A DNA stretch of 44,269 nt from Deltaproteobacteria bacterium (lineage in GTDB: Bacteria; Desulfobacterota; BSN033; UBA1163), in assembly GCA_016875255.1 (NCBI GenBank), contig VGRU01000005.1:1-44269 (forward strand), read 5' to 3'. Below the pieces are notes generated by a model. It was given only the letters and a program-made list of their open reading frames with translations. It was not told where the DNA came from and searched no databases. Positions 15,811 to 39,569 of the stretch are shown piece after piece (the first letter of the stretch is position 1; every line of letters starts with the position of its first letter). Made by a program: the position numbers and the translations under genes.

Positions 15811-16319
15811 CCCAGCTCTGCTGGGGTGATGAAAACAGGTTCGCGAAGCGATAAAACATGCTATAAGTACTGCATGAACTCGGTAAAAAGAACAAGCCAT
15901 GCAGTCTACGATTTGAAATATCATCTGGTATGGGTTCCCAAATACCGTAAGATGATTTTGCAGGGGAGTTTGGCCAAAAGGATCAGAGAAGTTTTTACGG
16001 AGATAGCCGAGAAGTATGAGTTTGATATAGATACGATGGAAGTGAAAGAGGATCATGTTCATTTGTTTTTGTCAGCGCCTCCGCGATATTCTCCGGCTGG
16101 GGTAGTACAAATCATAAAGAGTATATCAGCTAAAGTGGTGTTTAAGGAATTTCCTGAGATAAAGAAACAGCTTTGGGGAGGAGAGTTTTGGAGCGATGGG
16201 TATTTTGTTCGGTCTGTTGGAGACAAAGTAACCTCAGAAGTCATACGTCGATACATAAAGTATCAGCACCAAGAGCAGTTGAGTTTTGATTTTTAATGCC
16301 CCGCAGCTCTGCTGCGGGG
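15811..16319 (+). mobile_element. IS200-type insertion sequence
   Basis: A single-gene IS200/IS605-family element. The tnpA gene is bracketed by two hairpins with the same TCT loop: CCCAGC-TCT-GCTGGG at the left (15811-15825) and CCCCGCAGC-TCT-GCTGCGGGG at the right (16299-16319). Elements of this family have end hairpins, no terminal inverted repeats and no target duplication. The true cleavage sites lie a little outside the given limits and cannot be fixed from one copy. No TnpB gene is present. Confidence 0.8.
15874..16296 (+). CDS. tnpA: IS200/IS605 TnpA transposase (Y1 HUH)
   Basis: A 140-residue single-strand DNA transposase. The HUH motif is H61-V-H63 (EDHVHLFLSAPP) and the probable nucleophile is Y127 (VIRRYIKYQ). 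The start MNSVKRTSHAVYDLKYHLVW is the usual TnpA opening, so the ATG at 15874 is preferred; starts at 15826-15829 would add about 16 residues overlapping the left-end hairpin. The ORF is intact, so the element may be active or recently so. The right-end hairpin begins 3 bp after the stop. Confidence 0.9.
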   Translation: MNSVKRTSHAVYDLKYHLVWVPKYRKMILQGSLAKRIREVFTEIAEKYEFDIDTMEVKEDHVHLFLSAPPRYSPAGVVQIIKSISAKVVFKEFPEIKKQLWGGEFWSDGYFVRSVGDKVTSEVIRRYIKYQHQEQLSFDF

Positions 16320-16407
16320 TTCTTTACTGCGCTTGCATTAGTATAGAGAGCAGTTGTCATCCATGAAAAAGTTGGCCCTGTCGAGTGAGGCCGAAAAGGA
16401 GAAACAT

Positions 16408-17031
16408 ATGAATGAGCCGGTGATTCTGGAGATATTCTCCGATTATGTTTGACCCTGGTGTTATTTCAGTACCGTGCGTATTGAGCAATTGCGAAAGAAT
16501 TATGACATCGAAGTTCGTTGGGCGGCTTTTCCTCTTCATCCCGAGACGCCTGTGGAGGGACTCACTCTTGAAGAACTTTTTGCCGGACAACTCAAAGACA
16601 TTAAGAAGATCATGACCCGGTTGAAGCAAGTGGCGGGTGAATTAGGTTTGCCTATGGGTGAGCGAAAAAAGACTTACAATAGCCGTCTTGCTCAGGAATT
16701 GGCAAAGTGGGCAGAATCGAAGGGAAGGGGAGACGAATTCCACGAAGCTGTCTTTCGAGGCTATTTTGTGGAGGGTAAGAATATAGGCAAGGTTAACGAA
16801 ATAGTCGATTTGGCAAAATCGATAGGCCTTTCAGACAAGGAGGCACGATCTGTTCTTGAATTGAGAACCTTTAAGGAGGCAGTGGATTCCGACTGGTCTC
16901 GTTCACGCGCCCTTGGAATCACAGGAGTCCCGACCTTTTGGGTCGATTGCCATTCGGCCGTTGGATTCCAACCTTACGAAGATCTGGAACAATTCCTAAT
17001 AAACCTCGGCGCTAAAAAACGTAATCATTGA
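16408..17031 (+). CDS. FrnE/DsbA-like oxidoreductase with in-frame UGA (probable selenoprotein)
   Basis: Reading from the ATG at 16408, with AAGGAG at 16395-16400, gives MNEPVILEIFSDYV, then TGA at 16450-16452, then PWCYFSTVRIEQL and an open frame to 17031 (207 residues). FrnE-type DsbA-family proteins have DYVCPWCYF here, so the TGA occupies exactly the first active-site cysteine and gives U15-P-W-C18 if read as selenocysteine. The thioredoxin fold continues to the cis-Pro motif GVPTFWVD and is undamaged, which argues against a pseudogene. A candidate SECIS hairpin follows the UGA. Gene callers would truncate it to the GTG at 16474. No signal peptide is seen, so it is probably cytoplasmic. 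An in-frame ATG at 16363 could add 15 residues. Confidence 0.82.
16465..16485 (+). promoter_or_regulatory. Candidate bacterial SECIS element
   Basis: TTCAGTAC (16465-16472) pairs with GTATTGAG (16478-16485), including two G-U pairs, closing a 5-nt loop CGTGC with G at the second position. The apical loop begins 20 nt after the in-frame UGA. Position, and a G among the first two loop bases, match the bacterial SECIS pattern bound by SelB. The hairpin lies inside the coding sequence, as in bacterial selenoprotein genes. Confidence 0.6.
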
Positions 17032-38618: not shown

Positions 38619-39569
38619 CTATTGAGTCATTGGACTACTCAAAACTCCTGTGCAACTGGATCCCTGGCCTGCGGTGCAGCCGTAACAGTGGTCCAGGAGC
38701 GGGATGGGGTTTCCCTTCAGATCAATCCCCTTCAATTCGGAGAGATGGACCCGCGACCTTCCTTCCAACAGGAGGGGAAGGCCGAGCGCCTGATTGAAAT
38801 CGCAATCATAGACATAACCCTGATAGTCCACGCTGATAAGCCTCCGGCACATCACGGATTCGAGATTCCCGTCCTGATGCGCCCCCTGGAGAAGATTCAT
38901 ATACCTTAAACGCTCGCCCCTCGCCGTCAATAGTGTTTCAAAACGATGGACGGGCATATTGGTGATGGTATAGAGATGGTTGAAGACAATGCCATACCGG
39001 TCTCCCAGTTCTCTCCTGTAATCCTCTTCCAAGAGGGTTTGGGGAGAAGGAAGAAAAGAACCCAGCGGATTATAGACCAAATTGAGGGGGAGTCCCGAAT
39101 CTTTTTGGCCATAACCCAGCTGATTGAGCTTTCTTAAGGCACGGAGACTGGCCTCGAAAACGCCATTGCCCCGTTGACGGTCAACATTCTCTTTCAGGTA
39201 ACAGGGCAGGGAGGCGATGATCTCCACCTTCTGATCGGCGAGAAATTCTTCCAATCCCTCCATTCCGGATTCCTCGAAGACGGTAAGATTACAGCGATCA
39301 ATGACATGGATGCCCATCGCGCGGGCAGAACGGATGAGGCGTCTGAAGTGAGGGTTTAGTTCCGGAGCACCACCGGTTAGATCGAGGTGACGGAGATTCG
39401 ATGAGGCAAGGAAAGCAATCACCTGATCGATGGTGGTGCGATCCATCATCTCCATCCTTTCAGGACCGGCATTGACATGGCAGTGGATGCACCTCTGATT
39501 ACACCGGTAGCCAAGGTTCGCCTGTAAAATTTCAAGACAGGTTCGTCTGATCACTGGGAAACCGGTCAT
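38619..39569 (-). CDS. arsS: ArsS-type radical SAM protein
   Basis: A 316-residue radical SAM enzyme with the CxxxCxxC cluster C23, C27, C30 (LGYRCNQRCIHCHVNAGP), LRHLDLTGGAPELNPHF, and a C-terminal cysteine region (VYDCDFNQALG, HCYGCTAGQGSSCTG) for an auxiliary cluster. This matches ArsS, proposed to build the 5'-deoxyribosyl arsenic skeleton of arsenosugars from a methylated arsenical and SAM. The usual methyltransferase ArsM is not in the window. It starts 1 bp after the stop of the membrane-protein gene upstream, so the two are cotranscribed. It could also act on another thiol or oxyanion substrate. Confidence 0.9.
   Translation of the reverse strand: MTGFPVIRRTCLEILQANLGYRCNQRCIHCHVNAGPERMEMMDRTTIDQVIAFLASSNLRHLDLTGGAPELNPHFRRLIRSARAMGIHVIDRCNLTVFEESGMEGLEEFLADQKVEIIASLPCYLKENVDRQRGNGVFEASLRALRKLNQLGYGQKDSGLPLNLVYNPLGSFLPSPQTLLEEDYRRELGDRYGIVFNHLYTITNMPVHRFETLLTARGERLRYMNLLQGAHQDGNLESVMCRRLISVDYQGYVYDCDFNQALGLPLLLEGRSRVHLSELKGIDLKGNPIPLLDHCYGCTAGQGSSCTGVLSSPMTQ

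Follow-up and report, generated by a model that had tools for sequence, protein, structure and literature searches.

The UGA codon at positions 16450–16452 of the window (the whole stretch of DNA that was analysed, 44 269 nt from a Deltaproteobacteria bacterium) is almost certainly read as selenocysteine (Sec) in a FrnE-like redox protein. Judged from the codons of relatives and from a conserved RNA hairpin, Sec is the most likely meaning of this UGA. The features of the gene were located as follows.

16397..16401, + strand: Shine–Dalgarno sequence AGGAG, 6 nt before the ATG at 16408 (identical in the related loci L047 and L048).
16408..17028, + strand: Sec-containing FrnE/DsbA-like protein of 207 residues (PF01323 and structure matches), with the stop codon TGA at 17029–17031.
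16450..16452, + strand: UGA codon assigned to Sec15, first residue of U-P-W-C (codon pattern in homologues).
16459..16461, + strand: Cys18, second active-site residue (Cys in 35/35 aligned proteins).
16466..16484, + strand: predicted bacterial SECIS hairpin, 7-bp stem 16466–16472/16478–16484 and loop CGUGC at 16473–16477 (pairing, covariation and codon constraint).
16474..16476, + strand: GTG, the start used by standard ORF calling (GTG in a minority of TGA relatives).
16930..16932, + strand: Pro175 of the VPT loop (Pro in 35/35 aligned proteins).

The frame was read from the ATG at 16408 to the TGA at 17029–17031, and the TGA at 16450–16452 was its sole internal stop. This codon stood at residue 15 in the motif DYV-U-PWCYF (active site U15-P-W-C18). 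The sequence-only reading had placed the TGA on the first active-site cysteine of a frame intact on both sides, and this was confirmed. Besides Sec15, the only cysteines were Cys18 and the unconserved Cys181. The window was also scanned for other TGA read-through frames; 24 candidates were of sufficient size, five of them had a Cys within three residues and one of these five was the gene with the TGA at 16450. The differences from the nearest genome (G001) were clustered at residues 178–183 (16939–16956; WVDCHS in the window, LVNHRT in G001), and Cys181 of this cluster was absent from the other 34 aligned proteins.

The Pfam DSBA model (PF01323) matched the protein with 122.3 bits (cut-off 25.6) and Thioredoxin_4 matched more weakly. 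No NCBIfam model claimed the protein. The sole NCBIfam match at E <= 0.001 was to NF041057, the Rcas_1661-family thioredoxin-like (seleno)lipoprotein, at residues 110–197 with 33.7 bits, far below the cut-off of 190, and the protein is not a member of that family. The closest solved structure by sequence was Deinococcus FrnE (E = 7.9e-24), followed by SCO1869. An AlphaFold2 model was made from 35 sequences with Cys replacing Sec (mean pLDDT 96.0). Residue 15 was placed directly before helix 16–31 and the N-terminus (MNEPVILEIFSDYV) led straight into the first strand (inspected by eye for a signal peptide). Positions 15, 18 and 175 were C/U, C and P, respectively, in 35/35 aligned proteins. Pro175 is presumably the equivalent of the thioredoxin-fold cis-proline. 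The best PDB matches found with Foldseek were the Deinococcus FrnE entries (TMq 0.83–0.87, 29–30% identity); DsbM, kappa-class GST and HCCA isomerases were listed below them (TMq 0.68–0.75). The earlier assignment to FrnE/DsbA-like proteins therefore holds, no solved structure being closer than FrnE in either sequence or fold.

The FrnE of Deinococcus radiodurans (DR_0659; PDB 5cnw, 5co3, 5coh, 5cp1 and 5xwh) was among the closest known systems. Its first active-site residue is Cys, whereas that of the window protein is Sec; the site types are otherwise alike, U-P-W-C falling within the CP(W/F)C of Deinococcus FrnE (PMC8945050). The C-terminal CXXXXC of the D. radiodurans protein (residues 239–244) is missing from the window protein; it is also missing from FrnE of D. 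maricopensis and Streptomyces roseofulvus according to the same source (PMC8945050). Streptomyces coelicolor SCO1869 (PDB 3gl5) has a DsbA-family fold (TMq 0.86, 28% identity), and its entry is named as a probable DsbA oxidoreductase, not as a selenoprotein. The product of the window gene is a FrnE-like (DsbA-family) thiol-disulfide oxidoreductase, probably cytoplasmic. A net role as disulfide reductase is moderately favoured; D. radiodurans FrnE has been proposed as a cytoplasmic disulfide reductase (PMC8945050). The fold suggests that Sec15, which heads the first helix, would attack a disulfide or another oxidized substrate. Cys18 would then resolve the intermediate as a Sec15–Cys18 selenenylsulfide beside Pro175, and thioredoxin or a low-molecular-weight thiol would re-reduce it. 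Because the C-terminal CXXXXC is missing, the electron donor would act directly on the selenenylsulfide.

The selenoprotein might instead have a glutathione-linked role, like DsbM, kappa-class GST or HCCA isomerases, or serve disulfide oxidation or isomerization and not general reduction. The presence of these three groups in the Foldseek list points that way, as does the isomerase activity reported besides the reductase activity for D. radiodurans FrnE (PMC8945050). Such a role is possible but rather unlikely, FrnE ranking first by both fold and sequence and the C/U-P-W-C site lying within the FrnE pattern (PMC8945050). Reduction by a FrnE-like enzyme is the preferred role.

ORF calling with table 11 yielded only GTG 16474–17031 (185 aa), so the active site was lost, as had been foreseen for standard gene calling. 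The databases imply that this 185-residue protein is the functional product and that the TGA-containing part is untranslated: among the best 120 of 7661 protein database hits, 117 started after residue 15, three showed W at this residue and none showed C. The short product is very improbable, and the GTG start was rejected on codon 23, on the positions of Shine–Dalgarno-like stretches and on upstream protein conservation. Codon 23 was GTG in only 11 of 39 TGA sequences (the window and 38 TGA loci). In 33/39 sequences, an in-frame start lay upstream of the TGA with a Shine–Dalgarno-like stretch of at least 4 nt in front of it; codon 23 had such a stretch in 0/39. Conservation at the protein level extended to the residues before the TGA (F10 and D12 in 39/39 TGA sequences, Y13 in 38/39). 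On the structural model, a protein begun at the GTG would be left without the first strand, part of the first helix and the two residues of the active site. The long reading from 16408 was kept; the earlier claim that the ribosome site fits this start alone agrees with the AGGAG found 6 nt upstream.

The codon at residue 15 was read in homologues. The phylum scan covered 395 genomes, and the protein was found in 66 of them at 67 places (E <= 1e-30). For the locus scan of named genome records, DYVCPWCY was one of the search patterns; it gave 122 loci, of which the best 80 were kept. All 67 phylum places and these 80 loci were read at the codon level. The first set contained 110 loci (42 TGA, including four duplicates, and 68 TGT/TGC). 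The second set contained 37 loci, 35 of which reach residue 15 (29 TGA and six TGT/TGC); L150 and L161 were left out, residue 15 being outside their range. The codon in the 145 covering locus records (141 without the four duplicate records, which are from the same genome and all TGA) was TGA in 71, TGT in 39, TGC in 35 and any other in none; the counts of TGA and Cys are not frequencies, because the DYVCPWCY pattern and the choice of the best 80 of 122 loci over-sample Cys forms. The alignment proposed in the sequence-only reading, with Cys or U expected at residue 15, thus gave TGA or TGT/TGC in 145/145 records, and chance is excluded since no record had another codon. The TGA was carried by two subfamilies, UPWC (that of the window) and UPFC/UPYC at about 31–38% identity (L152, L154, L158–L160 and L162–L166).

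An in-frame TGA within a gene is often a pseudogene stop or a sequencing error. Here a degraded stop or an error is hardly credible and is already refuted by the codon pattern, the same TGA being present in 71 of the 145 records from many assemblies. Only two further in-frame stops were found across the aligned range of these records, both at the very end (L067 and L107), besides a TAA in the copy of G284 that was also listed by the phylum scan with its own aligned range. Downstream of the TGA, synonymous changes exceeded nonsynonymous changes in 15/15 pairs of six close copies. Equally remote is a UGA that encodes tryptophan or some other standard amino acid, for which the three W entries among the best 120 database proteins could speak, and which was rejected: homologues have TGA, TGT or TGC at residue 15 and never TGG, TGA terminates the 16408 gene and further genes of the window, the C-x-x-C site needs a Cys analogue, and G001 carries Sec genes. 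The W entries probably stem from gene calling with UGA as W. By eye, one of them (P0014) was closely like L022, whose codon is TGA. Sec is the reading retained for the UGA at 16450.

The loop CGUGC of the hairpin lies 20 nt after the TGA, and 13 nt separate the stem from that codon. The G is at the second loop position, in agreement with the apical-loop G and the 20-nt spacing reported earlier. Published SECIS criteria are a loop of 3–9 nt, a stem of 4–16 bp, a G at loop position 1 or 2, a distance of 16–37 nt from the UGA and a minimum free energy (MFE) at or below −7.5 (PMC13188914). The window hairpin agrees with these values as given there, with a 5-nt loop, a 7-bp stem, G second, a distance of 20 nt and an MFE of −7.6 kcal/mol (51 nt), which is just inside the limit (PMC13188914). 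Single-sequence folding energy was dropped as SECIS evidence (z = 0.00; 96 of 200 shuffles were as good). On this one sequence the fold gains no stability over shuffles, and the argument for the hairpin is a comparative one, not a thermodynamic one.

The chance of the same codon given the same amino acid was calculated for the 39 TGA sequences. It was 0.42 gene-wide, 0.75 in the 12 codons after the TGA and 0.41 in the next 12 codons, and the highest 12-codon stretch started at codon 15. No such constraint was seen in 68 Cys sequences (0.46 gene-wide, 0.43 after residue 15, then 0.48). RNAalifold, run on the 39 sequences, found six of the seven stem pairs unprompted. The pair missing was the middle one; among 38 distinct sequences, 14 cannot form it. 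Stem cells were paired at 93.2% with a covariation score of 0.143 (39 sequences); each value was reached by 0/500 shuffles, and slid stem controls were 19–53% paired. Two of five pair measures did not stand out against shuffles: the three pairs changed on both sides (matched by 26/500) and the number of further pair types (matched by 410/500).

Pairs were then counted at fixed positions in 67 TGA loci (38 inside the pair-counting alignment and 29 outside) and 74 Cys loci. At least six of the seven pairs were present in 65/67 TGA loci vs 2/74 Cys loci (Fisher P about 4e-35, which is optimistic because the loci are related). The TGA loci with fewer than six pairs were L046 (four) and L142 (five), and the Cys loci with at least six were L077 and L117. 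All ten UPFC/UPYC TGA loci had six or seven pairs in the same register with a different sequence. A covariance model built from the 39 sequences gave 79.3 bits for the window, 24.2–79.8 bits for held-out TGA loci and up to 48.5 bits for Cys loci. It was dropped as a TGA/Cys classifier on account of these overlapping ranges, as it captures coding sequence as well as pairs. The search for a bacterial SECIS at the TGA, another check named beforehand, therefore returned a bacterial-type hairpin with covariation, paired in 65/67 TGA loci.

The presence of Sec genes was checked in the nearest genome, G001, whose protein is 97% identical with the same TGA and which shares 38% of the sampled 31-letter words of the window. 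All were present: selB (368 bits), selA (627 bits), tRNA-Sec (76.5 bits) and selD, which carries one TGA of its own. Among named hits the best was L047 (Deltaproteobacteria MAG CROMO_BS_46_3). It was identical to the G001 locus across the compared stretch, and in the blocks aligned around the gene its DNA was 97.4–98.7% identical to the window. From a relative this close around the gene, we infer that the organism of the window would carry selA–selD. The only tRNA found in the 44-kb window was tRNA-Met.

Of the 66 matched genomes, 64 entered the selB scan; G016 and G152 were excluded, as residue 15 is outside their matches. At the thresholds used, selB was found in 55/58 TGA genomes and 5/6 Cys genomes, the TGA genomes without it being G027, G128 and G210. 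Nine genomes were also searched for selA, selD and tRNA-Sec. G027 and G128 had selA and tRNA-Sec; selD was not found in G004 and G128, and tRNA-Sec was not found in G010 at E <= 1e-9. This stricter tRNA-Sec search was relied on because the version at E <= 0.001 was positive in 14/14 controls (3/14 for the repeat at E <= 1e-9). None of selA, selB, selD and tRNA-Sec was found in the Cys genome G052 or in G210, which is marked 100% complete. In the G210 copy (contig 37, L133/L168), the codon for residue 15 is TGA and the hairpin is present. Since all three congeners of G210 have selB, assembly loss and recent gene loss are both possible there. In G470 (contig 26), a copy with one in-frame TGA (at any position) was found and selB was not detected in the genome. 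As selB was present in 20/21 relatives over the cut-off, its co-occurrence inside the phylum discriminates little and was dropped as evidence. The 80 named loci gave 49 named genomes (four were already covered in the phylum scan and 27 Cys loci were left out), in which selB was found in 8/8 TGA vs 8/41 Cys carriers (P about 3e-5).

Sec insertion at the TGA, as first proposed, is thus supported by the codon alternation, the constrained hairpin and the Sec genes of G001. By the known mechanism of Sec insertion in bacteria, SelB carrying Sec-tRNA would bind the hairpin and deliver Sec at the UGA at 16450, and the terminal UGA at 17029 would end translation.

The gene was described beforehand as an unannotated selenoprotein. 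This is true of the gene model only, because the family has been known since 2005, when DsbA-like UxxC selenoproteins (COG2761, nine sequences) were reported from the Sargasso Sea (PMC1088965). DsbA-like selenoproteins also appear in later bacterial surveys (PMC1794560; PMC5029168); they were counted in 41 organisms in 2016 (PMC5029168) and are 'predicted with high confidence' in a 2026 list (PMC13188914). The DsbA-like selenoprotein form 1, as described there, has PF01323, UxxC with Sec first and a SECIS directly after the UGA. Both protein features (PF01323 and U15-P-W-C18) were found in the window gene, as was the hairpin. By that description, no essential difference was found, UPWC being the form of the subfamily of the window, and the window gene is a member of this family. 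In the DsbA-like selenoproteins of Ciona and amphioxus, Sec likewise replaces the first Cys of CXXC, and the Ciona intestinalis gene is likewise misannotated past its Sec codon (PMC2874816). Their SECIS is of the eukaryotic 3′-UTR type, whereas the window hairpin directly follows the UGA.

With residue 15 masked, 141 proteins (74 with Cys and 67 with Sec, the window protein among the latter) were placed on a quick tree. At least nine state changes were counted, six of them forced by well-supported branches, and the Cys forms of the phylum were scattered among Sec forms. The direction of change is unproven, because the tree has 48 open forks among 138 inner branches and the count is unrooted. 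L077 (Geobacteraceae, Cys, selB present) retained the loop CGTGC with six of the seven pairs, which is what a fossil SECIS would look like. L117 (Cys) also had six pairs, with an unlike loop. In a 2006 survey, no Sec-to-Cys event and one Cys-to-Sec event were given for four DsbA-like selenoproteins, as its columns read (PMC1794560). The present set, on its unrooted tree, suggests Sec-to-Cys events as well; repeated switching between Sec and Cys, as it appears from these sequences, is an addition to prior knowledge. More tentatively, Sec may be the standing state of the FrnE-like clade and Cys derived, Sec replacing CXXXXC as the feature that enables regeneration. In favour of this doubtful reading are UPWC and UPFC/UPYC, which both keep Sec with a same-register hairpin, the at least nine changes on the tree and the Cys copy L077 with its SECIS-like hairpin. 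L087, from a gammaproteobacterial MAG (Granulosicoccaceae; 47% protein identity, selB present), has the TGA and the exact stem-loop of the window. It sits amid Cys relatives, by horizontal transfer or retained Sec.

The neighbouring genes of the window were also annotated. An IS200/IS605-type transposase (15826–16296; NF033573, 160.9 bits) lies directly upstream of the selenoprotein gene and is followed by a GC-rich hairpin (16298–16319). No match to this transposase was found in the 3 kb upstream of the gene in L047. Alignment with L047 begins again 42 nt upstream of the start codon; by eye, the L047 DNA at that place seems to encode a segment resembling GIY-YIG. A second DsbA/thioredoxin-like protein is encoded at 1511–2422 (Thioredoxin_4, 72.5 bits); its N-terminal part is weakly DsbC_N-like, below the model cut-off. 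Sulfur-transfer and cofactor genes were found between 22487 and 43252 (LarC, LarE, HcyBio for homocysteine biosynthesis, NIL-ferredoxin, ThiI-like and a ThiS-NIL fusion). An ArsS-family radical SAM protein (38619–39569; TIGR04167, arsenosugar biosynthesis (seleno)protein, 441.3 bits) is the second selenoprotein family of the window, in its Cys form. Its codon at 38652–38654 is TGC (Cys), at the position taken for the Sec of the family (GxxU; PMC13188914).

The gene is a real but unremarkable case of a selenoprotein family already described, and automatic annotation shortens it; the known picture of selenoprotein biology as such is confirmed. New here are the repeated Sec/Cys switching suggested by the tree and the finding that 117 of the best 120 listed database proteins begin after the active site. 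The missing active site is restored to the gene. The signature of hairpin and codon constraint is well resolved and might be used as a rule for annotation. With Sec and Cys forms mixed on its tree, the family is well suited to testing why bacteria keep or lose selenium.
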